This document shows positions 7,193-23,927 of a stretch of 64,000 nucleotides of DNA, in pieces. The notes under the pieces were generated by a model that was not told the origin of the DNA, did no database searches, and worked only from the letters and a program-made list of their open reading frames with translations. This DNA comes from Mesorhizobium sp. M3A.F.Ca.ET.080.04.2.1 (GTDB lineage: Bacteria > Pseudomonadota > Alphaproteobacteria > Rhizobiales > Rhizobiaceae): the NCBI RefSeq assembly GCF_003952525.1, contig NZ_CP034451.1, positions 3,224,001-3,288,000 of the forward strand. The letters are read 5' to 3'. Numbering within the stretch: the first letter of the stretch is position 1; the number at the start of each line of letters is the position of its first letter. A program made the position numbers and the translations under genes.

Positions 7193-8083
7193 ATGAATCG
7201 CGCCAACCTCTCGCAGCTTGCCGTGCTCGCCACCGTGGCTCAATGCGCCAGCTTCCGCGGCGCAGCGCGCGAGCTCGGCATCGCGCCGTCAGCCGTGAGC
7301 CACGCGGTGTCGAGCCTGGAGGCGCGGCTCGGCGTGCGGCTTTTGTCACGCAGCACACGCAGCGTCGCCCCGACCGAGGCAGGCACGCAGTTGCTGGAGC
7401 GGCTGCGGCCGGCGCTTTCCGAGATCGACCTCGCTCTGGAGACGGCGGTCGAGGCGCGCGACCAGCCGGCCGGCAATCTCAGGCTCAGCGTGCCACGCAC
7501 GGCAGCACATCTGGTGCTGACGCCGCGTCTCGGCGCTTTCGCCGCCGCCTATCCCGACATCGCGCTGGAGATCGTCATCGAGGACCGCTTCACCGACGTG
7601 GTCGAAGGCGGTTTCGATGCCGGCGTGCGGCTCGGCGAAAGCCTGCAGCGCGACATGATCGCGGTGCGCATCGGGCCGGATATGCGCGGAGCAGTGGTCG
7701 GCGCGCCGTCCTATTTCGCGACCATGCCCAGACCTCGCCACCCGCGTGAGCTCGCCGAGCATCGCTGCATCCGGTTCCGCTTCTCCAGCGGCATTCTCTA
7801 TCGCTGGGAATTCGAGAAGGACGGCGAGGAAATCGAGTTCGCCGCGCAAGGGCCGCTGATCCTCGACGAGGACCATTTGATTGCCCAGGCCGCCATCGAT
7901 GGCGCAGGACTGGCCTTCGTCTTCGAGCCTTATGTCCGCGCCCCGCTCGCCGATGGCCGGCTGATCCGGGTGCTTGAGGACTGGTGCCCGTCCTTCGAAG
8001 GCTTCTTCGTCTACTATCCGAGCCGCCGCCAGATGCGGCCGGCGCTGAGGGCTTTCGTGGATTTCTTCAGGGTGAGCGGGTAG
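7193..8083 (+). CDS. LysR-family transcriptional regulator
   Basis: A 296-residue protein with an N-terminal winged helix-turn-helix (residues 3-60, including SFRGAARELGIAPSAVSHAVSSLE) and a substrate-binding domain with the GGFDAGVRLGE motif common to the CrgA/DmlR-like LysR group. The ATG at 7193 aligns with the usual LysR start. It is divergent to the aldo/keto reductase gene, the classic arrangement in which LysR controls its neighbour. The inducer is unknown. A similar regulator occurs at 35955. Confidence 0.93.
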   Translation: MNRANLSQLAVLATVAQCASFRGAARELGIAPSAVSHAVSSLEARLGVRLLSRSTRSVAPTEAGTQLLERLRPALSEIDLALETAVEARDQPAGNLRLSVPRTAAHLVLTPRLGAFAAAYPDIALEIVIEDRFTDVVEGGFDAGVRLGESLQRDMIAVRIGPDMRGAVVGAPSYFATMPRPRHPRELAEHRCIRFRFSSGILYRWEFEKDGEEIEFAAQGPLILDEDHLIAQAAIDGAGLAFVFEPYVRAPLADGRLIRVLEDWCPSFEGFFVYYPSRRQMRPALRAFVDFFRVSG

Positions 8084-8147
8084 GCGCGCGGCGGGCCGGT
8101 AGCAGGCAAATCGTTTCGGCGTCGCTCGCAATCCTGTCGCACGTCGG

Positions 8148-8331
8148 CGCTGCCCCTCATCTGCCTGCCGGCATCTTCTCCCCGTTGAACGGGGAGAAGG
8201 GGCTGACCGCAACGCCGGCGCCCTTGTTGCGACTTCAGACACCAGCGACAGGGCGCAGGCTATTTTCTCCCCGTCACTATACAGTCACTACACGGGGAGA
8301 AATGCCCGGCAGGGCGATGAGGCGCGGCGCT
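8148..8331. repeat. RIME-like intergenic mosaic repeat
   Basis: The left part contains CTTCTCCCCGTT (8175-8186) paired with AACGGGGAGAAG (8188-8199). The right part contains ACGGGGAGAAATGCCCGGC and GCGATGAGG, the inverse of CCTCATCTGCC...GGCATCTTCTCCCC at the left edge, so the whole element is a large imperfect inverted repeat. It resembles rhizobial intergenic mosaic elements (RIME) that carry CTTCTCCCC palindromes. It separates the lysR gene from the cytochrome b561 gene and codes for nothing visible. Confidence 0.7.
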
Positions 8332-8406
8332 GGCGTCTGGAGTCTTTTTGAGAACCAGGCCTGGGATGCCTTGGAAGAAAGCCGAAGCCGTTAGCGTTTT
8401 TGGGCC

Positions 8407-8979
8407 ATGCGACCAACCATCACCAACACCACGACCCGCTACGGATGGCCAAGCATCGTGCTGCACTGGCTGATCGGGGTGATCTTCATCGGCCAGTTCG
8501 GGCTCGGTTTCGTCATGATGCGGACGCCTAGCCAGCGCACCGCCTTCGAGCTGATCCAGCTGCACAAGTCCTTCGGCTTCCTGCTGCTTGGGCTGATCAT
8601 CCTGCGCATCGCCTGGCGGCTCGGCAATGCGGCGCCGGCGCTGCCGGCCTCGGTCGGCACCCTGGAGCGGCGCACGGCGCCGCTGGCGCATTTCGCACTC
8701 TACGCCTTCCAGATCGCGCTCCCCCTTTCCGGCTGGGCCTTGGTATCGGTGTCGACGCTGGAGATCCCGAGCATGCCGTTCAACCTGTTTGTAATGCCAA
8801 ACCTGCCGCTCACCGAATCCGACGCCGCCGAAAGCTTCTGGTCGGCCGCGCATTGGTATCTCGCCTATGCCGGCATCGCGCTGGTGGCGCTGCATGCAAT
8901 GGCGGCACTGCGCCATCATTTCCTGCTCCGCGATACGGTGCTGACGCGCATGATCACGCCTTCATCGGGCGGGGAATAG
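8407..8979 (+). CDS. Cytochrome b561-family protein
   Basis: A 190-residue integral membrane protein with four predicted transmembrane helices and histidines suited to b-type haem ligation (LHWLIG near residue 19, QLHKSFGF near 55, WYLAYAGIALVALHAMAA near 160). The family (often called CybB-like) moves electrons between quinol and other carriers, for example superoxide. It is followed 65 bases later by a YceI gene, a very frequent pairing in proteobacteria. The start is the ATG at 8407. Confidence 0.92.
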   Translation: MRPTITNTTTRYGWPSIVLHWLIGVIFIGQFGLGFVMMRTPSQRTAFELIQLHKSFGFLLLGLIILRIAWRLGNAAPALPASVGTLERRTAPLAHFALYAFQIALPLSGWALVSVSTLEIPSMPFNLFVMPNLPLTESDAAESFWSAAHWYLAYAGIALVALHAMAALRHHFLLRDTVLTRMITPSSGGE

Positions 8980-9044
8980 AAGGGCCCCATGGTTCGTTGG
9001 TGGCGAGACGACAGCAATGAGCTGCCTCAGGAAAGGACCATCCC

Positions 9045-9620
9045 ATGCATGCGCGCAGCCTCGGATTGGCGGCTTTGGCCGCTTGCCTTGCCGTGCCCGT
9101 TTACGCGGCGGCGGCGCTCAGCGACGCGGCCGGCAGCTACGCGATCAGCCCGGCGGGCTCCAGCATCCGCTTCACCATCGGCAAGGCGGGCGGTGGCGGC
9201 TTCGACGGCGCCTTCGGCCGCTTCAAGGGCACGATCCGCATCGACAATGCCGATGTCGGCCGCTCGAAGGTCGACCTCACCATCTATCCGGAAAGCGTCG
9301 GCACCGGCCAGGCGCGCATCGACGCCTTCCTGCGCTCCGACGCGGTGTTCGACAGCGCCAACAATCCGGAGATCGAGTTCCGCTCGACAGGCGTGACCCG
9401 CACCGGGGAGACGACGGCCGTGGTCAGCGGCCGGCTGACGGCGCGCGGCAAGACGTTTTCGGAAAAATTCACCGCTGAACTCAATGGATTGAAGGGCGGC
9501 ACGATCAGGTTCCACGTCACCGGCAAGGTGCTGCGGTCACGTTACGGCATGGATGTCGGCACGCCGATCTATTCAAATGTCGTCGACTTCGACATGACGC
9601 TGATGGGGAAGAGGGGCTAG
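9045..9620 (+). CDS. YceI-family periplasmic protein
   Basis: A 191-residue secreted protein: a Sec signal peptide (about residues 1-23, ending in a V-Y-A-A-A region) followed by a lipocalin-like YceI domain with GSSIRFTIGKAGGGGFDG and repeated beta strands. YceI proteins bind polyisoprenoid molecules in the periplasm. AGGA precedes the ATG at good spacing. The neighbour cytochrome b561 suggests a shared redox or stress role, which is inference from frequent co-occurrence. Confidence 0.92.
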   Translation: MHARSLGLAALAACLAVPVYAAAALSDAAGSYAISPAGSSIRFTIGKAGGGGFDGAFGRFKGTIRIDNADVGRSKVDLTIYPESVGTGQARIDAFLRSDAVFDSANNPEIEFRSTGVTRTGETTAVVSGRLTARGKTFSEKFTAELNGLKGGTIRFHVTGKVLRSRYGMDVGTPIYSNVVDFDMTLMGKRG

Positions 9621-12740: not shown

Positions 12741-13571
12741 TTGAAAATTCAGGTGAGCTACTACTCGAAGCTCTATCATATTGAGGGCCTCGCGCGGGCC
12801 ATCGGGTGGAAGAAATCGATCTCGGTACTGCTCCGCCGTGTGTTGGGCATCGGAGCGCCCATGAAAGTCCGTTGCGGTGGACATGACCTGCTGGTCAGGC
12901 CCACCGACAGCGACCTGTTCGTGATCTCGCAGGTCTTCGGGCACTGCGAATACCAGATCGGCGAAGCGGGCCAGAACGCGCTCAACCGCCTCGCGAAGGA
13001 GTGGCGAAGAAAAGGCTTCGTCCCTGTGATTGTCGACGCCGGCGCCAATGTCGGCTACTCGTCAATCTTCTTCAGCGACAAGTATCCTGATGCCCTGGTG
13101 ATGGCTGTCGAGCCGGACCGCCGGGCCTTCGAAGCGTTGATTTCGAACTGCGCCGAATCGGAGCAGATCGTGTCGGTCTACGGCGCACTGTGGCGCCACG
13201 ACGGCCAGGTTGCACTGGTCAACACCGATCGCCCCTCATGGGCACGCGCCGTATCTGAAGGCCAAGGTGTGCCTTCGATCACCCTGAAGAGCCTGCTTGC
13301 CAAGGTGCCCAAGGCCAAACTGCTGATCCTGAAAATGGACATCGAAGGTGCGGAGCGGGAGGTCACGCGTGACTGCGGCAAGCTGCTCAGGGATGCGCCG
13401 TGCATCATTGTGGAGCCGCACGACTTCCTGTTTCCCGGCCGCGGCTGCCTCTCGTTCGTCTACGCATCGCTGACCGAAAGGAGCATCGACAGCCTTGTGA
13501 GCGGCGAGAACCTGATCTTCATAGCGTCGGAATTGCTGACCCCCAAAACCTCACGGCGGAGAGCCGGATGA
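12741..13571 (+). CDS. FkbM-family methyltransferase
   Basis: A protein of up to 276 residues. The SAM-binding motif VDAGANVGYSSIFF sits near residue 98 and the family signature KMDIEGAEREV near 200, both typical of FkbM O-methyltransferases that modify polysaccharides or secondary metabolites. The start is uncertain: TTG at 12741 lies directly after GGTGGAGGA, while GTG at 12753 has more normal spacing from that site. No glycosyltransferase or other polysaccharide gene is adjacent, so its target is unknown. Confidence 0.87.
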   Translation: MKIQVSYYSKLYHIEGLARAIGWKKSISVLLRRVLGIGAPMKVRCGGHDLLVRPTDSDLFVISQVFGHCEYQIGEAGQNALNRLAKEWRRKGFVPVIVDAGANVGYSSIFFSDKYPDALVMAVEPDRRAFEALISNCAESEQIVSVYGALWRHDGQVALVNTDRPSWARAVSEGQGVPSITLKSLLAKVPKAKLLILKMDIEGAEREVTRDCGKLLRDAPCIIVEPHDFLFPGRGCLSFVYASLTERSIDSLVSGENLIFIASELLTPKTSRRRAG

Positions 13572-13805
13572 AAGACCGTCCAGACTGTGTCCAAAAGCGC
13601 GTCGCGCTGAAGCGGCTTCAGCCGGCGCGCTTTAGTAGCACCGAGACTTCTTCGGCGCGTCTGGAGGCTACCGATCGACGACAAGGCGCGGCACTCTTGA
13701 CGCCATGCAGTCGATCGAATTTTCGCGGCTCTTTCCCCCTGGAACGCGACGCAGGTCTGTGCGTTTGGACATCAGCCGCGGCGGTGAAGACGGAGTGCGC
13801 GCACA

Positions 13806-14169
13806 ATGGCCTCCATCCGATACATTGCGACGGACGTCGATAAATCCGTCGCATTCTATCGCGACAAGCTCGATTTCTCGGTGAACATGCACAATCCCGG
13901 CAAGTTCGCAGCGCTTGTTCGTGACGATCTGACGCTCTATTTGAGCGCCCCGGGGTGCGGGCAGTGGCGGAACTGCGGGCGGCGATCCGGAGCCTGGCGG
14001 GTGGAACCGGTTCATGATCGTCACGAAAGACCTGGATGGCCTCGTCGGCCGGCTGAACACCGGCGGGGCAGACTTCAGAGGAGAAATCAGCGAGGCGGGA
14101 GCCGGGCGCGCCAGGCTCCTGGAAGATCCCTCGGGCAATCTGATCGAGCTGTTTGAATTCAAGACATAA
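13806..14169 (+). pseudogene. VOC-family (glyoxalase/bleomycin resistance) protein, frameshifted
   Basis: The first 48 codons read as a VOC-fold protein (IRYIATDVDKSVAFYRDKLD). At the GGGG run at 13952-13955 the frame must shift by one base for the rest to make sense: it then continues with W-N-R-F-M-I-V-T-K-D-L and ends LLEDPSGNLIELFEF before a TAA at 14167-14169. The length of 364 bases equals 120 codons plus stop plus one base, consistent with one extra G. Repaired, it is a normal 120-residue VOC protein. Either a recent pseudogene or a sequencing error. Confidence 0.8.
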
Positions 14170-14318
14170 GTGATGCTTCTGCCTGTCTAGTTTGCTTGGA
14201 GCCGCTGCCTCCCAGCGAGGCCGAAGCACCCGGCTGTTCAGCCACCAAGTCATTAACAATTCATGCAGCGTGGCGCAGTATTGTCGGCCTGAAGAAGTCT
14301 GACAGATGAGCTCTTCCC

Positions 14319-15965
14319 TTGCGCGACAGCCCTGCCGAAGCGACCAATTTGCAGCTTGTCATCCACAACGACGATGAGACTCCGTGGCCGTTCGTCGTCG
14401 ACCTCGTCCGCTCGATCTTCGACCGATCGGAGGCGGAGGCTGAAGCCTTTGCCGCAATAGTGACGCAGCAGGGAAAGGCGGTGTGCGGCAGCTATCCTGT
14501 CGCCGTCGCAAAGGCGATGCTGGATACGGCGCAGCAGCGCATCAAGGCAGCCGGCCACCCGCTTCGCATCACGACCGCTGCCGGCGGAAGCGAAACCACG
14601 TCCAAGGACGGTCCTCCGGCACAGACTTTGCGCGACAGAAAGTTCAAATATGCCTATGAGGCCATCGCCTGGCATTTCGCGGGACTGGCGCAGGACGAGA
14701 TCGTCGCGACGTCCCGCCAGTTTCCCGGCCATATGCGCGCCGACGTGCAGGTCGCGCTCGACAAACTGTTCTCGACCTCGCCCATTCGCTTCTTCGGCCT
14801 CTACGAGCAACACCGCTACGAGACGCTGACCTATGCCGCGCTGACAAAAGACGGACAGTACGCGGTCACCATCTCGGCGGCGCAATACCAGGATGTCGAT
14901 ATCGGCGAGGACGAACCGATAAGGTGTCTCACCAACGGCTTGTGGCTCAATCGCGACCAGGACCTGCCCTACGCGGTGGTGCTGTCCTTTCACCGTGAGT
15001 ACGGCCGCGAGGCCGGAACCTGCGTCGAGATCGCCATCCCGGCCGGCGAGGGCGGCGTGGCGCTGGTGAACCGCTGCTTTTCGGAGCTGGAGGCCGCGAT
15101 CAATGCCGCGCGCTCCTATCGCGGCAAGGTTCTCTCGCTCGAGACCGAAAGCGACTATAGCGGCCGCTCCAAGGGCGTGATGGTGCATCGCTTGCCGCAA
15201 GTTCCGCGCGAGGCGGTCATCCTGCCGGAACGCACCCTGAAGCTTCTCGACCGCAACGTGATCCGGTTCATCGAGAGCCGGGAAGCCCTGAGGCGACTTG
15301 GGCAATCGACACGCAAGGGCATCCTGCTTTACGGGCCGCCGGGCACCGGCAAAACGCACACCATTCGCTATCTCGCCGCCAACCTGCCCGGCCATACGAC
15401 GCTCATCATAACGGCCGGCCAGATGGGCTTGCTGTCGCACTATATGACGCTTGCGCGGCTGCTGCAGCCGGCTACGGTGGTGATCGAGGACGTGGACCTC
15501 GTTGCCCGCGACCGCGAGACTATGGGGAGCCCGTGCGAAGAGTCTCTCCTCAACGCGCTGCTCAACGAGATGGACGGATTGAAGGACAACGCCGACATCC
15601 TGTTCATCCTGACCACCAACCGGCCCGAACAACTGGAAGCTGCGCTTACAGCGCGGCCGGGGCGTATCGATCAGGCCATCGAGGTGCCGCTGCCGGACGA
15701 CGGCAGCCGGGAGAAGCTGGTCCGCCTTTACGGCGGCGGCCTGAAACTGTCCGACAAGATCGTGAACGAAGCCGTTATGCGCACGAAGGGCGTCAGCGCC
15801 GCGTTCATCAAGGAGCTGATGCGCCGTACCGCGCAAACGAGCATCATGCGTGGCGACGGCGAGGCCGTCACCTCCAAGGACCTCGCCGAGGCCCTGGACG
15901 ACATGCTGTTCACGGGCGGCCGGCTCAACGTCAAGCTGCTTGGCGGAGCAGCCGAGGAGCCATGA
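14319..15965 (+). CDS. ClpS-domain / AAA+ ATPase fusion protein
   Basis: A 548-residue protein with an unusual architecture. Residues 11-85 look like the adaptor ClpS (HNDDETP at 16-22, then QGKAVCGSYP at 51-60). Residues 105-300 are an uncharacterised middle region. Residues 330-540 are an AAA+ module with Walker A GPPGTGKT (339-346), a Walker B of BCS1 type VVIEDVD (387-393), sensor 1 TTN (432-434) and RPGR (446-449). There is no protease or metal-binding HExxH motif. Aligned with E. coli ClpS, the N-degron residues N34-D35-D36 are kept but His66 becomes Thr49. The start is TTG at 14319; an ATG at 14306 would be in frame only if one C in the run at 14330-14332 were extra. It is a single-gene unit converging with the permease gene. 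Confidence 0.85.
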   Translation: MRDSPAEATNLQLVIHNDDETPWPFVVDLVRSIFDRSEAEAEAFAAIVTQQGKAVCGSYPVAVAKAMLDTAQQRIKAAGHPLRITTAAGGSETTSKDGPPAQTLRDRKFKYAYEAIAWHFAGLAQDEIVATSRQFPGHMRADVQVALDKLFSTSPIRFFGLYEQHRYETLTYAALTKDGQYAVTISAAQYQDVDIGEDEPIRCLTNGLWLNRDQDLPYAVVLSFHREYGREAGTCVEIAIPAGEGGVALVNRCFSELEAAINAARSYRGKVLSLETESDYSGRSKGVMVHRLPQVPREAVILPERTLKLLDRNVIRFIESREALRRLGQSTRKGILLYGPPGTGKTHTIRYLAANLPGHTTLIITAGQMGLLSHYMTLARLLQPATVVIEDVDLVARDRETMGSPCEESLLNALLNEMDGLKDNADILFILTTNRPEQLEAALTARPGRIDQAIEVPLPDDGSREKLVRLYGGGLKLSDKIVNEAVMRTKGVSAAFIKELMRRTAQTSIMRGDGEAVTSKDLAEALDDMLFTGGRLNVKLLGGAAEEP

Positions 15966-16347
15966 CGTTGCCGAGCGGTGACCAATAACGGGCTGGCGAC
16001 GGGCGACCCATTCGCTGCCGCGGCGGAACAACCAGGTTCGATAGAGCAGGAGATCCCAGCTCCACCTTGAACTGTCCGGACGTTTGATCTCGTCGATCTC
16101 CCAACCACAAGCACAGGCCCCTCGTTGCGATCTCTCAGTCGCTTATCGACCGTTGGCAAGCCGCTCATCGAGCCCGACGAGAATCTGCTCCCAAGACTTG
16201 CCGTGATGGTCGGCGCGTATTCGAAACGGAACAGTCGGGCCGCTTTCACAGCCATTGCCGCGCCGCGGATGCGATCCCCTATCTTGTCGCGGATTTGATG
16301 GCCGCCGCGGCGCTGACCCTGGGATTCGCCGTCTGCTTTTTCGCTGA
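15966..16347. other. Gene-free stretch of 382 bases
   Basis: Lies between the convergent AAA+ and SLC13 genes. I see no open frame with recognisable protein content, no strong terminator and no copy of the local repeat families. Base composition looks slightly less GC-rich than the flanks. Confidence 0.5.
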
Positions 16348-18120
16348 TCAGTTCATCGGCCACACGATCGTCAGCATCGGCACGGCGACAATGATGACCA
16401 GGAACGACAGCGGCAGTCCCAGGCGCGGATAGTCACTGAAACGGTAACCTCCCGGCCCCATGACGAGGGTGTTGCACTGGTGTCCGATCGGAGTGAGGAA
16501 GTCGCAGCCGGCGCCGATGGCGACCGCCATCAGAAATGCTTCCGGCCTGTAGCCCAGATCGCCGGCAAATTCTGAGGCGACAGGCGCCATGACAAGAACG
16601 GTGGCGGCATTGTTGAGGAATGGCGTGACGGCCATGGCGGCGACAAGGATGAGCATCAGTGCGCCGGGCGCTGGAAGAATGCTCGCGAGCTGGGCTAGTT
16701 CTCCGGCAACCAGTCCGGTCGCCCCTGTGCTGCGCAGCGAGTCGCTCACCGGAATGAGCACGGCGAGCATGATGAGAATGGGACCATCCAGCGATTGGTA
16801 GACGTCCCGCAGCGGGATGACCTGGAAAAGCACGATCCCCACCGCCGCCGCAAAGAAGGCGACGGAAACAGGCAGCAGACCAAAGGCCGTCGCCACCATC
16901 GCCAGAGCAAGGATTGCTACCGGCACGACGCCTTTGCGGACGCTGCCAAGAAGGATCGGCCTTTCCGCCAGTGGCAGGCAGCCGAATTCGCGCAGGATCT
17001 CGGGCATTGTCGCTGCGTTGCCCTGCAACACGACGACGTCGCCGAGCCTGAGTTCGACTTTGGCGAGCCTGCGGTCGAGGCGCTGGCCGCGGCGGCTGAC
17101 GGCCAGCAGATTGACATTGAAGCGATCGTAAAGGGCAAGGCGCTGCGCGGTCCAGCCGATCAACGAGGAGCTTTCGCCGATTACGGCCTCGATAGCTACC
17201 CTTTCGCCGGTGGTGGCGTCCTCATCCACCCGATCCCCGGTGACGCTTAGCTTACCCTGCGAGACAAGGCGATCGAGCGCCGCCGGGTCGCCTTCGAGCA
17301 ACAGGATGTCATTCTCCTTCAGGACGGCATCGGGCAGCGGCGTCATCCGCATAGTTCGATTGCGCAAGATCGATGTCACGACGGCATCGCCGCCGGCGAG
17401 TTTTATGAGGTCGGCGACGGTTTTCCCAAGCACGGTGGAATCGCTGACAATGCGAGCCTCTGTGAGGTAATTCCTGATGTCGAGGGCTTCATTCAGCGCC
17501 GCGCCGAGCTTTTCGCGCGCCGGTACCAGCCAATAGAAGAACAGCAGGAAGATCATTCCTGCGACGGCTACAGCAGCTCCGACGGGTGCGAAGTCGAACA
17601 TGGTGAACGCGGTTCCGGTCAACTCCTCTCGCACTCGGGACACAACGATGTTGGGGGAAGTTCCCACCTGCGTCATGAGACCGCCGAGCAGTGATCCGAA
17701 CGCCATCGGCATCAGGAATATCGACGGTGAAATGCTGGATCGGCGCGCGAACTGAAAGGCGATCGGGATCATGATGGCCAGCGCACCGATATTCTTGACG
17801 AAGGCAGACAGTAAGGTCACCACGATCACCAGCAGCGCCAGTTGCGACCGAACACCCGACAATTTCGGAGCAAAGCGCTCGATGGCAACTTCCATGATGC
17901 CCGAGCGCGCTATGCCTGCGCTCACCAGCAGAGCGCTGCCGACGATGATCACGATATCGTCGCTGAAGCCGCTGAAGGCTTCGTCGAAGGGCACAATGCC
18001 AACGGCGAGAGCAAGCAGGAGTGCCGCCGCCGCGACGAGATCATATCGATAGCGACCCCACACGAACGCTGCCATCATCACGAAGGTGACGGCGAACGAC
18101 AGAATTTGCGGCGTGGTCAT
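16348..18120 (-). CDS. SLC13-family permease with two RCK_C domains
   Basis: A 590-residue membrane protein with about ten or more transmembrane helices split by a cytoplasmic block near residues 210-370. That block holds two TrkA-C (RCK_C) like domains (around LGKTVADLIKLAGGDAVV and LRLGDVVVLQGNAATMPEI). This is the layout of the SLC13/DASS-like carriers such as sodium/sulfate or dicarboxylate symporters. The C-terminal motif FLTPIGHQCNTLVMGPGGY is well preserved. Substrate cannot be told. No partner gene adjoins it. Confidence 0.9.
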   Translation of the reverse strand: MTTPQILSFAVTFVMMAAFVWGRYRYDLVAAAALLLALAVGIVPFDEAFSGFSDDIVIIVGSALLVSAGIARSGIMEVAIERFAPKLSGVRSQLALLVIVVTLLSAFVKNIGALAIMIPIAFQFARRSSISPSIFLMPMAFGSLLGGLMTQVGTSPNIVVSRVREELTGTAFTMFDFAPVGAAVAVAGMIFLLFFYWLVPAREKLGAALNEALDIRNYLTEARIVSDSTVLGKTVADLIKLAGGDAVVTSILRNRTMRMTPLPDAVLKENDILLLEGDPAALDRLVSQGKLSVTGDRVDEDATTGERVAIEAVIGESSSLIGWTAQRLALYDRFNVNLLAVSRRGQRLDRRLAKVELRLGDVVVLQGNAATMPEILREFGCLPLAERPILLGSVRKGVVPVAILALAMVATAFGLLPVSVAFFAAAVGIVLFQVIPLRDVYQSLDGPILIMLAVLIPVSDSLRSTGATGLVAGELAQLASILPAPGALMLILVAAMAVTPFLNNAATVLVMAPVASEFAGDLGYRPEAFLMAVAIGAGCDFLTPIGHQCNTLVMGPGGYRFSDYPRLGLPLSFLVIIVAVPMLTIVWPMN

Positions 18121-19848: not shown

Positions 19849-21342
19849 TCAGGCCGGGCGGCGCAGACTGCCTCGCGCTTGGTCGAGCCGCACCGGCTGA
19901 TCCGGAATGGTGACGGCGAAGGTGGTGCGGCCGCCGATCGATTCGACGAGCTCGACCGTGCCGCCATGGGCGCGGATCAGCTCATGGGCGATCGCCAGGC
20001 CGAGACCGGTGCCGCCGCTGCGCGCCGAGCCGCGGAAGGCCGCGAACAGGTTCTCGCGCGCCTTGGGCGGCAGGCCGGGGCCGGTATCGGTGACAGTGAT
20101 GCGGCTGACGCTGCCGACGCGCTCGGCCGAGACCGCCAAGCGGCGCACCACCGCGCTCTCGGTGTCGGCGGCCATCGCCTGCACCGAGTTGCGGCAAAGA
20201 TTGGTGAGCACGCGGAACAGCTGGTCGGAATCGGCGTCGACCTCGAAGGCGAGCTCGACGGCGTTGATGAACTCGATGCCTTCCTCGATGTCGAGCAGGC
20301 CATGCACATCATCGACCAGCTGGCGCAGCCGCAGGCGGCGGCGCGACGGCGCCGGCTCCTGGGTGCGGCCATAGGCGAGCACGCCCTCCGAATAGGCGAC
20401 GGCGCGATCGAGCGCGCGCAAGAGCTTCGGCGCGAAGGACTGCACGGTCGGATCCTTCACCTGGCGCAGGCGGTCCGACATCAGCTGGGCGGAGGCCAGA
20501 ATGTTGCGCATGTCGTGGTTGATCTTCGAGACCGCCAGCCCAAGGTCGGCGAGATGCTTCTGCTCGGACAGCATCTTCTGCAGCCGCTCCTGCATCTGCG
20601 ACAGCTCGCGCTCGGCGACGCCGATCTCGTCGGCGCGGGCAGCGGGACGAATGATGCGCCCGGGATCGTCGGGCGCTTCGGAAAAGGACAGGATCGAGCG
20701 CGTCATGGTGCGGATCGGCCCGATCATGATGAGGTCGATCGAGGCATAGACCAGCATGGCGGTGAACAGCGATATCAGCAGCGAGACGACGGCGACGTTG
20801 CGCGAATAGCGCAGCATCGCATTGCGGAGGCTGTAATCCGGCATGATCAGCTCGAATTCCTTGTCGCTGTCGCCGACCGGACCGAAGACGCGCAGCATGC
20901 GATTGCCGCCGAAGAACAGCGTGTCGAGCGCCCCGGTCATGCCGTTGACCAGCCCGACATTGGCGATGTCGATATGCTCGTCGACCTGCGGGGGCATGTC
21001 GGCCACGACCAACAGCCGCGAGACGCCGCCGTCGCGCACCGCGATCGCCCTGGCGCCGATGGCCATCAGCACGTCGTTCTGGGCGGCATGCGACAGCGAG
21101 TTGGGCTCGCCCTGCAGCAAAACGATCGACACCGCGGCGGCGGTGTTCAGCCGCTCCTTCAGCCAGCTCACACGGTAGCTGGCGATCCAGGGCAGGAAGA
21201 TCAGGATTTCGGCCAGCAGCACGAAGACGATGGTGAGCAGCAGAAGCTTGGTCGACAGGCCGCGCGACAGCGGCACCCGGCGCGCCGCGTTTGCCGCCGG
21301 CAGCCGTTGCTTTTCATCCGTGGGCAGAGCTTCGCTGGTCAT
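19849..21342 (-). CDS. Membrane sensor histidine kinase
   Basis: A 497-residue kinase. Two transmembrane helices (about residues 30-52 and 180-205) enclose a periplasmic sensing region, followed by a HAMP-like linker, a dimerisation helix with the phospho-acceptor His in SKINHDMRNILAS, an N box LCRNSVQAM, and G boxes DTGPGLPP and GGTGLGLAIAHEL. No response regulator is adjacent, so it is an orphan kinase in this window. It lies divergent from rpmH. Signal and target are unknown. Confidence 0.92.
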   Translation of the reverse strand: MTSEALPTDEKQRLPAANAARRVPLSRGLSTKLLLLTIVFVLLAEILIFLPWIASYRVSWLKERLNTAAAVSIVLLQGEPNSLSHAAQNDVLMAIGARAIAVRDGGVSRLLVVADMPPQVDEHIDIANVGLVNGMTGALDTLFFGGNRMLRVFGPVGDSDKEFELIMPDYSLRNAMLRYSRNVAVVSLLISLFTAMLVYASIDLIMIGPIRTMTRSILSFSEAPDDPGRIIRPAARADEIGVAERELSQMQERLQKMLSEQKHLADLGLAVSKINHDMRNILASAQLMSDRLRQVKDPTVQSFAPKLLRALDRAVAYSEGVLAYGRTQEPAPSRRRLRLRQLVDDVHGLLDIEEGIEFINAVELAFEVDADSDQLFRVLTNLCRNSVQAMAADTESAVVRRLAVSAERVGSVSRITVTDTGPGLPPKARENLFAAFRGSARSGGTGLGLAIAHELIRAHGGTVELVESIGGRTTFAVTIPDQPVRLDQARGSLRRPA

Positions 21343-21445
21343 GACGCGGTCTTCACGAAGGCTTGATCGCCAAGATTATGCGATTTGCGGCTTTTTTCCA
21401 ATTTTGTCCCTGGCGTTATGAAAAATTCCCCGCCGCGGGGCCGGA

Positions 21446-21474
21446 TTGACTTCCAAAAACCTTCTTTCTATAAG
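21446..21474 (+). promoter_or_regulatory. Strong sigma-70 promoter for rpmH-rnpA
   Basis: TTGACT (21446-21451) and TATAAG (21469-21474) are exactly 17 bases apart. This near-consensus promoter points at rpmH, which starts 118 bases later, and leaves an untranslated leader of about 110 bases. Confidence 0.7.
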
Positions 21475-21591
21475 CCCGCTCACGCTCGGGCCGTTCGTCC
21501 GGCGCGGTTTCGATCGCGCCCAAGGTCCGGCGAAGCTCCTGTTACACAGTGACAGAATCAAGAAGGGCCGCACGCCGCGGTATTAAAACAA

Positions 21592-21726
21592 ATGAAGCGT
21601 ACCTACCAACCGTCCAAACTCGTCCGCAAGCGCCGGCACGGTTTCCGTGCCCGTATGGCTACCAAGGGTGGCCGCGGCGTCGTTGCTGCCCGCCGCAACC
21701 GCGGCCGCAAGCGGCTCAGCGCCTGA
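21592..21726 (+). CDS. rpmH: 50S ribosomal protein L34
   Basis: A 44-residue basic protein starting [18 protein letters not shown] and ending GRKRLSA, the full-length sequence pattern of L34. It is followed 16 bases later by rnpA, the conserved bacterial pairing. L34 is a component of the large ribosomal subunit. Confidence 0.97.
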
Positions 21727-21742
21727 ACGAAAGACGAGATCG

Positions 21743-22096
21743 TTGCCCGCAACCGGCAAGCCAAAGGGACAAACTCCCGGGCGGCTTCTGAAACGCGCGG
21801 ATTTCCTAGCTGTGCGCGGCGGCGAAAAGCGCCGCGGACGGCTTTTTCTCGTCGAGGTTCTCGACCGCGGCGACCAGCTTGCGCCACGCGTCGGCTACAC
21901 CGTCACCAAGAAGGTCGGCAACGCCGTGGTGCGCAACCGCGTCCGGCGGCGGCTCAGGGAAGCCGTGCGCGTCCATGCCGCCGATGACATGGCGCCCGGT
22001 AATGACTATGTCATCGTCGGGCGCGAAGACGTGCTCGCCATTCCGTTCGGCCAGTTGAAGGCCGAACTTTCCCGCCGGCTGCGCGGCACACGATAG
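21743..22096 (+). CDS. rnpA: Ribonuclease P protein component
   Basis: About 117 residues. The basic RNA-binding signature [28 protein letters not shown] is present in the middle (the RNR motif). RnpA is the protein subunit of RNase P, which trims the 5' ends of tRNA precursors. The frame is open further upstream over rpmH, but the TTG at 21743 gives a normal N-terminus before [13 protein letters not shown]; no early in-frame ATG exists. yidC follows after 13 bases. A yidD gene, often between the two, is absent. Confidence 0.93.
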
Positions 22097-22109
22097 GCCA
22101 AGGCTTTCG

Positions 22110-23927
22110 ATGGAAAACAACCGCAATTTCTTCATCACCATTGCGCTGTCGGTGCTGATCCTGACGCTGTGGCAGGTGTTCTACATGAACCCGAAAATGG
22201 AGCAGCAGCGCGAGGCGGCCCGTATCGAGCAGCAGCGCGTGGAGGCGCAGAAGAAGGACGCGGGCACCGCCAATTCCGGCGCCGCCTCGACGCAGGCTCC
22301 GGCGCCGGGCGCCATCCCCAACGCGCCGGGCGGCGAAGCCGTCACGGCGGCCAGCCGCGACCAGGCTATTGCGGCGACGAAGCGCATCAGGATCGACACG
22401 CCGAGCCTCGAGGGCTCGATCAACCTGACCGGCGCGCGCCTCGACGACATCAAGCTCAAGCACTACACCGAGACGGTCGACAAGAACTCGCCCGAGATCC
22501 AGTTGCTCAACCCGCAGGCGCTGCCCACCGGCTATTTCGCCGAGATCGGCTTCGTCGGCAGCGACAAGACCGGCACGGTGCCGGGCGCCGACACGGTGTG
22601 GAGCGTCGACGGCAATCCGACGCTGACGGCATCGTCGCCGGTGACGCTGACCTTCACCAACGACAAGGGCCTGACCTTCAAGCGCACCATCTCGGTCGAC
22701 AATGATTACATGTTCACCGTGTCCGACACGGTGCAGAACTCGGGAACCGCTGCCGTCAGCCTGTTCAACTATGGGCGCGTCACACGCTACGACAAGCCTG
22801 CCGTCGCCAGCACCTATGTGCTGCATGAAGGCCTGATCGGCGTCACGGGGACGGAGGGGCTGACGGAATACAAATACGCGGCGATCGAAAAGGACAAGGA
22901 AGTCAAGCCAGGCAAGTCGACCGACGGCTGGCTGGGCATCACCGACAAATACTGGGCCGTCACCCTGGTGCCGACCGAGAAGCAGCCCTTCCAGCCGCGC
23001 TACGGGTTTTTCGAGGACGGGCGCCACCGCTATCAGTCCGACTTCCTCACCGACGCGATCAATGTCGACGCCGGCCAGTCCGCGACTGTCGAGACGGAGA
23101 TTTTCGCCGGCGCCAAGGAAGTCGCCAAGATCAACGCTTATGAGGCTGACCGGCACATTCGCCAGTTCAACCTGCTGATCGACTGGGGCTGGTTCTATTT
23201 CATCACCAAGCCGATGTTCTGGCTGATCGACACGCTGTACAAATTCTTCGGCAATTTCGGCCTGGCCATCCTGGCCACCACCGTCATCGTCAAGGCCATC
23301 TTCTTCCCGCTCGCCAACAAGTCCTACGCGTCGATGGCGAACATGAAGAAGGTGCAGCCGAAGATGCTCGAGATCCGCGAGAAATACGCGGACGACAAGA
23401 TGAAGCAGCAGCAGGCGATGATGGAGCTCTACAAGACGGAGAAGATCAATCCGCTGGCCGGCTGCTGGCCGGTGGCGCTGCAGATCCCGGTCTTCTTCTC
23501 GCTCTACAAGGTGCTCTACATCACCATAGAGATGCGGCACGCGCCGTTCTTCGGCTGGATCCATGACCTTGCGGCGCCCGATCCGACGTCGGTCTTCAAC
23601 CTGTTCGGCTTGCTACCCTTCGCGGCTCCGGCTTTCCTGCCGCATATGGGCGCCTGGGCGGTGGTGATGGGCATCACCATGTTCCTGCAGATGCGCATGA
23701 ACCCAGCGCCGCCGGACCCGACCCAGGCCATGATCTTCACCTGGATGCCGGTGGTCTTCACCTTCATGATGGGCAGCTTCCCGGCCGGCCTGGTCATCTA
23801 CTGGGCCTGGAACAACCTGCTCTCGATCCTACAGCAGGGCGTGATCATGAAGCGCCAGGGCGCCAAGATCGAGTTGTGGGACAATCTGGCGGCGATCTTT
23901 CGCAAGAAACCATCGCCGGCGGAGTAG
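22110..23927 (+). CDS. yidC: Membrane protein insertase YidC
   Basis: A 605-residue protein with an N-terminal transmembrane anchor (about residues 6-24), a large periplasmic domain (residues 60-350) and the conserved five-helix insertase core starting near residue 365, including KKVQPKMLEIREKYADD and NPLAGCWPVALQIPVFFSLY. YidC inserts inner-membrane proteins alone or with SecYEG. It is the third gene of rpmH-rnpA-yidC and is followed by a strong terminator. Confidence 0.97.
   Translation: MENNRNFFITIALSVLILTLWQVFYMNPKMEQQREAARIEQQRVEAQKKDAGTANSGAASTQAPAPGAIPNAPGGEAVTAASRDQAIAATKRIRIDTPSLEGSINLTGARLDDIKLKHYTETVDKNSPEIQLLNPQALPTGYFAEIGFVGSDKTGTVPGADTVWSVDGNPTLTASSPVTLTFTNDKGLTFKRTISVDNDYMFTVSDTVQNSGTAAVSLFNYGRVTRYDKPAVASTYVLHEGLIGVTGTEGLTEYKYAAIEKDKEVKPGKSTDGWLGITDKYWAVTLVPTEKQPFQPRYGFFEDGRHRYQSDFLTDAINVDAGQSATVETEIFAGAKEVAKINAYEADRHIRQFNLLIDWGWFYFITKPMFWLIDTLYKFFGNFGLAILATTVIVKAIFFPLANKSYASMANMKKVQPKMLEIREKYADDKMKQQQAMMELYKTEKINPLAGCWPVALQIPVFFSLYKVLYITIEMRHAPFFGWIHDLAAPDPTSVFNLFGLLPFAAPAFLPHMGAWAVVMGITMFLQMRMNPAPPDPTQAMIFTWMPVVFTFMMGSFPAGLVIYWAWNNLLSILQQGVIMKRQGAKIELWDNLAAIFRKKPSPAE

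Follow-up and report, generated by a model that had tools for sequence, protein, structure and literature searches.

A ClpS domain fused to an AAA+ motor in Mesorhizobium: a putative client reader outside ClpAP

In its familiar form ClpS is a free protein that serves ClpAP as an N-degron adaptor. What, then, might a ClpS domain be doing when it is built into the same polypeptide as an AAA+ motor and no protease accompanies the two? The question is raised by a 548-codon open frame (positions 14319-15965, forward strand; product of 548 residues) that lies in a 64,000-nucleotide stretch, hereafter the window, of a Mesorhizobium genome assembled as a single contig of 6.17 Mb. The frame opens with TTG, a position occupied in relatives by ATG, GTG or TTG. 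A first-pass annotation of the window had described a ClpS-like domain ahead of a full AAA+ module, with no protease in the chain, and this architecture is borne out by domain profiles: Pfam ClpS (PF02617) matches residues 10-85 (E 1.3e-15, 57.4 bits against a cut-off of 23) and Pfam AAA (PF00004) matches residues 335-458 (E 1.3e-21). The most economical reading, which we hold with moderate confidence, is that the protein works in the cytosol as a soluble, Bcs1/YjoB-type ring ATPase that has captured ClpS as its client-recognition end.

A fusion under selection, with an altered ClpS domain

The ClpS domain proper (residues 11-85; 14349-14573) is modelled over residues 11-90 with pLDDT of 80-91 in blocks of ten residues and with the strand and helix order of ClpS (beta-alpha-alpha-beta-alpha-beta), so that profile and model agree on the fold that had been proposed for this region. 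It is followed by a linker of low confidence (residues 86-111; 14574-14651; pLDDT below 50 at 90-103), by a beta-rich middle domain, alpha/beta in type and with a long sheet (residues 112-300; 14652-15218), at the chain position of the Bcs1 middle domain, and by the AAA module with its lid (residues 319-530; 15273-15908), all on the forward strand.

The fusion gene is real and under selection. Of 146 Mesorhizobium genomes, 13 have the same domain order free of stops (86-100% identity); in three of the 13 the search matches begin after ClpS, yet inspection of the frame finds it whole. Ten named Mesorhizobium records also have the full order (83-89% identity). Across 45 Mesorhizobium pairs dN/dS is 0.165 for ClpS, 0.485 for the linker, 0.106 for the middle domain and 0.066 for the AAA module, and in a second genus, most likely Bradyrhizobium, the values are 0.292, 0.169 and 0.132 for ClpS, middle domain and AAA module respectively. 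Since selection is evident and the order is kept in 13 genomes, a fusion by chance or by frameshift was rejected.

Although the fold is that of ClpS, its binding residues are only partly those of the adaptor. Alignment with E. coli ClpS agrees with the correspondences first noted, in which N17, D18 and D19 stand for Asn34, Asp35 and Asp36, W23 stands for Met40 and T49 for His66. The comparison was extended to the 35 ClpS-bearing rows (10 Mesorhizobium, 25 others) of alignment A4, which has 45 rows and includes 10 of the 14 Mesorhizobium fusions. His66 is kept in none of the 35, being replaced in Mesorhizobium by Ser (6), Thr (2) or Ala (2) and elsewhere by Glu (18), Leu (3), Trp (2), Asp (1) or Ser (1). 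Tyr37 and Met40 are likewise kept in none, with Trp in place of Met40 in all ten Mesorhizobium rows, and Met62 is kept in five. By contrast, Thr38, Cys73 and Leu99 are present in all 35, Val43 and Asp35 in 33, Asn34 in 27, and Val or Ile at position 65 in 34. The complete Asn34/Asp35/His66 pocket of an adaptor is therefore not found, even where Asn34 and Asp35 remain.

The surface that serves ClpA is also altered. Glu79 and Lys84 of ClpS are the residues that dock on the ClpA N-domain. Neither is kept in any of the 35 domains (Asp replaces Glu79 in two; Lys84 is always Met or Leu), and in the window's protein the positions are occupied by A62 and M67; because both are lost throughout, docking of the fused domain on ClpA is unlikely. 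Two further ClpS genes, both encoding free proteins, lie elsewhere in the same genome: ClpS1 retains H66, M40, E79 and K84, and ClpS2 retains H66 and K84 with Arg at position 40 and Asp at 79. Only 8 or 10 residues precede the ClpS core in the ten Mesorhizobium rows (in the window's protein the core starts at residue 11). According to one report, residues 2-26 of E. coli ClpS form an N-terminal extension that enters the ClpA channel (PMC9663308); the fused domain is not a free protein with such an extension, and a plain ClpAP adaptor was rejected. Loss of His66 alone is nevertheless compatible with N-degron binding, because the UBR1 N-domain has Asp at that position and yet binds type 2 N-degrons (PMC8346999). 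Judged by these substitutions, altered N-degron binding is possible, and most likely the ligand of the domain has shifted to a related one and docking on ClpA has been lost.

The motor and its missing pore loop

The AAA module contains the signatures that the first-pass annotation had assigned to it, namely Walker A (GPPGTGKT, residues 339-346; 15333-15356), a Walker B of the IEDVD form (VVIEDVD, residues 387-393; 15477-15497) and RPGR in the second region of homology (residues 446-449; 15654-15665), again on the forward strand. Walker A (G339, G344, K345 and T346), D391, G448 and R449 are invariant across the 45 rows, and R446 is kept in at least 90% of them. The Walker B acids run in the order E-D (E390-D391) in 43 of the 45 rows, the others (loci L150 and L151) having D-D; the equivalent sequence in yeast Bcs1 is LLLEDID.

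The site at which pore loop 1 would be expected (residues 365-376; 15411-15446, forward strand) does not contain it. From the Walker A lysine to the Walker B acid there are 45 residues in 45/45 rows, against 53 in five FtsH loci and 46 in yeast Bcs1, the sole comparator used for the short spacing of the Bcs1/YjoB class. It is this short spacing that indicates that the canonical pore loop 1 is missing. In keeping with it, an 8-residue gap falls opposite the KYYG of the first VCP-like domain in the alignment, and in the model the strand at 360-364 runs straight into the helix at 366-381. The aromatic pore loop 1 of threading unfoldases of the Clp and Cdc48 type is thus absent, and the motor looks, as far as pore loop 1 is concerned, Bcs1/YjoB-like rather than Cdc48/Clp-like. 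In the initial description of a "BCS1/Cdc48-like" motor the first half is supported by the spacing of 45 and the E-D Walker B, whereas the second is not borne out at pore loop 1, although the sequence score is near Cdc48; the term "unfoldase" is not supported.

Structural comparison points in the same direction. The best whole-chain match of the model is Bacillus YjoB (PDB 7w42 and 7w46), which covers the middle domain and the AAA module at about 20% identity. Searches with the middle domain alone return weak helix-grip-like matches and a weak match to Bcs1. Nor is there an N-terminal membrane helix of the Bcs1 kind; ClpS stands in its place.

Relatives, chromosomal site and nitrogen-fixation loci

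Searched with a middle-domain profile, an order-level sample of 397 genomes contains the family in 11 and a phylum-level sample of 398 in 7; the samples share genomes, and the window's own genome is counted. In genus g41, most likely Bradyrhizobium, the family occurs in 116 of 242 genomes. Forty further loci were hand-picked from the profile matches, so that their domain counts are not a rate for the genus: 24 have ClpS and a CxxC...CxxC pattern (two of them, L123 and L134, with broken frames), 11 have ClpS without the finger and five have no ClpS. The finger sits where the window's protein, which does not have it, has its linker. It resembles zf-C4_ClpX at 22.4 bits in L080 and 16.2 bits in L085, neither of which reaches the cut-off of 27 bits; in L083, L084 and L086 nothing matched at E 0.01. 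Among plasmid records none covers 80% of the query; the best 40 rows are ClpS-less relatives (40-52% identity) from Rhizobium, Sinorhizobium, Mesorhizobium and Paraburkholderia. In a Pirellulales relative (L034) a hydrophobic N-terminal stretch lies where ClpS would be. A midpoint-rooted tree of the 55 different rows of alignments A1 and A4 places the window's protein in a Mesorhizobium clade of 14 rows (support 100/100). The sister of this clade, from G387, carries the zinc finger, and the rhizobial rows without ClpS, 12 in number, group together (100/100). The Pirellulales row sits on a long branch, and its placement may be wrong.

In several Mesorhizobium loci the fusion is found near a block of histidine kinase (reverse strand), rnpA and yidC (both forward), which in the window occupies 19849-23927. 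The block is near the fusion in 6 of 14 Mesorhizobium loci, the window included, with the fusion pointing towards the kinase, and near the family gene in 5 of the 40 other loci, four of the second genus plus G387, a member of a third family in which the orientation is changed. This shared block suggests an old chromosomal site from which the gene has been lost many times.

Some sister copies have a different setting. Both they and the zinc-finger form lie outside the window on which the first-pass annotation was based. A ClpS-bearing group (L127, L135, L147 and L149-L152; support 98/92; likely Bradyrhizobium) includes copies in nif clusters, with nifB, nifN, nifS, an IscA-type carrier, a NifX-associated protein and, under cut-off, a NifU-like protein as neighbours; L149 and L152 have no such neighbours within their 18 kb. 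In Paraburkholderia sprentiae nifK and nifE flank the family gene, which is annotated there as two overlapping pieces, and in R. leguminosarum Norway fixAB-type genes and nifA are found downstream of it. The copies in S. garamanticum, S. meliloti and R. leguminosarum Ta6k have no annotated nif gene within 6 kb. A number of the nif-linked copies have broken frames.

Promoter-like sites accompany this linkage. A predicted pair, defined as a NifA site (TGT-N10-ACA) 60-200 bases ahead of a -24/-12 element, is present ahead of 12 of the 68 family genes and of 9 of the 583 neighbour genes (p 9e-8; relatedness inflates the count), and at least three of the nine paired neighbours are true nif genes (two nifB, one nifH). 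The paired family genes are those of L037, L038, L062, L063, L064, L066, L127, L135, L142, L147, L149 and L150, the pair in L149 being weak and not to be relied on. None of the 14 Mesorhizobium fusions, the window's included, has the pair; L029 and L031 have a strong -24/-12 match alone. In Mesorhizobium genomes the ClpS-less form goes with nifH (10/10 against 89/136, p 0.03). An association of the fusion itself with nifH was rejected (11/13 against 88/133, p 0.22); in the window's genome nifH is 0.58 Mb from the fusion gene.

Several observations concern the copies and their surroundings. In the window, a VOC/glyoxalase-like gene just upstream of the fusion (13806-14156, forward strand) has an apparent frame change after about residue 47, and an N-terminal piece of the same kind, continued in another frame, is also upstream of the fusion in L030, L060 and L061; the window's copy is either truly broken or affected by a sequence error. 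A scan of 13500-16400 for sigma70 promoters and terminators gave no match. In L033 (8131-11802) the fusion has on one side a near-full FAD-dehydrogenase gene (residues 4-542) and on the other a repeat of that gene's 3' end (residues 481-548), an arrangement that looks as if it arose by insertion with partial duplication. Among neighbour-locus gene calls, which were made with an in-house codon score, a downstream gene on the same strand begins within 60 bases in three loci, L033, L122 and L134; in L033 it is the duplicated end of another gene and in L134 the second half of the broken family gene itself.

A protein of about 200 residues is encoded near the family gene in the Bradyrhizobium-type nif loci L127, L135 (6407-6997), L142, L150 (10615-11292) and L151 (6454-7077), and L035 has one at its edge; Pfam scans of two copies (L150 and L135) gave no match at E 0.001. 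Most ClpS-less A1 rows (of L062, L063, L064, L065, L070, L036, L072, L037, L038 and L040) end in an acidic, cysteine-bearing tail, for example EEDDSDCCG, which is not found in the fusions and is possibly a metal site. Three ClpS-less copies, one of them broken or partial, share a Mesorhizobium plasmid in G160 (L071-L073), and multi-frame or shortened copies occur in L067, L068, L073, L035, L066, L123 and L134, mostly nif-type or symbiosis-plasmid loci. In the planctomycete L034 the family gene (7799-9232) follows a gene that, from its sequence, we take to be an asparagine synthase.

Function and comparison with known systems

Collectively the fusion is best read as a motor with an in-cis ClpS client reader that works without ClpA or a protease. 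ClpS, joined in many relatives by the ClpX-like zinc finger, would occupy the place of the Bcs1 membrane helix, and its pocket would bind the exposed N-terminus or a hydrophobic peptide of a client, delivery to ClpA having been abandoned. The ring would open and compact as ATP is bound and hydrolysed, and the client that it surrounds, whether folded or partly so, would be remodelled or released; since the canonical pore loop 1 is missing, the motor would not thread or unfold the chain. Sister genes appear to have been drawn into nif clusters and, probably, into the NifA/sigma54 regulon, so that the client there is probably nitrogenase or one of its assembly proteins, and the window's chromosomal copy would act alike on another client. 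A bolder version, which we regard as rather unlikely, is that the family provides a soluble bacterial counterpart of Bcs1 for folded metal-cluster proteins, its ClpS/zinc-finger front end turned from destruction to a non-destructive chamber, and that NifA took control of the family in at least two lineages, the rhizobial one without ClpS and the Bradyrhizobium one with it, for the assembly, repair or protection of nitrogenase.

Several alternatives were weighed. A true N-degron machine, in which ClpS still reads N-terminal Leu, Phe, Tyr or Trp and the motor unfolds the client for ClpP or another protease, would accord with the several pocket positions kept, with the precedent of UBR1 and with Glu or Asp at position 66 in 19 of the 25 non-Mesorhizobium domains. 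It is also favoured by the plain sequence score of the motor, which is nearest to Cdc48, PAN and FtsH and weighs against a motor of the Bcs1/YjoB type. The absence of the canonical pore loop 1 tells against it, as do the Thr, Ser or Ala at position 66 and the Trp for Met40 in Mesorhizobium. Moreover, of the proteases first suggested as partners none could be traced nearby: when gene calls at 70 loci were scanned for motifs of ClpP, FtsH, Lon and subtilases, none turned up within 5 kb of a family gene, seven of the loci extending for less than 5 kb on one side. We consider such a machine improbable. Equally improbable is a competitor of ClpAPS that would sequester N-degron clients or the targets of free ClpS so that ClpAP does not reach them, storing them safely or acting as a regulator, and would use its ATPase to let them go. 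Loss of the ClpA docking residues with part of the pocket kept, and the presence of both free ClpS proteins in the same genome, would suit this role, but nothing indicates that the pocket binds the same ligands, and some relatives keep the motor without ClpS (5 of the 40 hand-picked loci, and the plasmid copies).

Two further possibilities set the adaptor aside. One is a role in phage defence, as an ATPase akin to the IetA component of IetAS, which was considered because the AAA part is recognised by the IetA models of PADLOC and NCBIfam (E 4.5e-22 and 1.7e-20). The best matches, however, cover residues 272-524, the AAA module and a little before it, and the score of 73.5 bits is far from the NCBIfam cut-off of 510; no IetS-type subtilase motif occurs within 5 kb in the 70-locus scan, in which defence islands were not searched for, and the site is chromosomal and syntenic, with sister genes linked to nif. 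IetAS itself was rejected, and a related defence role is very unlikely. That the fusion is neutral, or a decaying gene without a job, would fit its patchy presence and the broken nif-linked relatives, but is largely refuted by the low dN/dS in all three domains and by the invariance of Walker A, D391 and R449, and can hardly be credited.

If the non-threading, client-reading ATPase is the correct description, an adaptor for degradation now reads clients for a machine that handles folded proteins without degrading them, and bacteria can use ClpS-type recognition independently of ClpAP. Some rhizobia would then possess a so far unrecognised AAA chaperone for nitrogenase assembly, probably controlled by NifA, and the Bcs1 clade would extend to soluble bacterial members with recognisable client-binding modules. 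No description of a ClpS-AAA fusion was found among the open-access papers listed, nor one that brings an AAA ATPase together with the NifA regulon of Bradyrhizobium, most subscription papers lying outside the search; we class the protein as a Bcs1/YjoB-like AAA protein carrying Clp-type recognition modules.

Among the closest known systems is YjoB of Bacillus subtilis, which the literature treats as a putative Bcs1-clade chaperone; its whole-chain structural match spans the middle domain and the AAA module, and it is not known to carry ClpS or a zinc finger. Bcs1, the mitochondrial translocase of the folded Rieske protein, has a beta middle domain followed by an AAA module with short Walker A-B spacing and an E-D Walker B, but it forms heptamers and has its own N-terminal membrane helix where the fusion has ClpS, and the middle domain alone matches it weakly. 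With IetA the likeness is confined to the AAA part, the IetA models leaving out ClpS and most of the middle domain. The front end, for its part, belongs with PF02617 and largely keeps Asn34, Asp35, Thr38, Val43 and Leu99 of ClpS, whereas it carries its own motor and has lost His66, Tyr37, Met40, Glu79 and Lys84; the finger that follows it in relatives resembles, below cut-off, the N-terminal C4 zinc-binding domain of ClpX. A further parallel is the N-domain of UBR1 and UBR2, which is also a ClpS-type reader housed in one chain with its machine, with residue 66 changed in UBR1, although that machine is a ubiquitin ligase and has no AAA motor.
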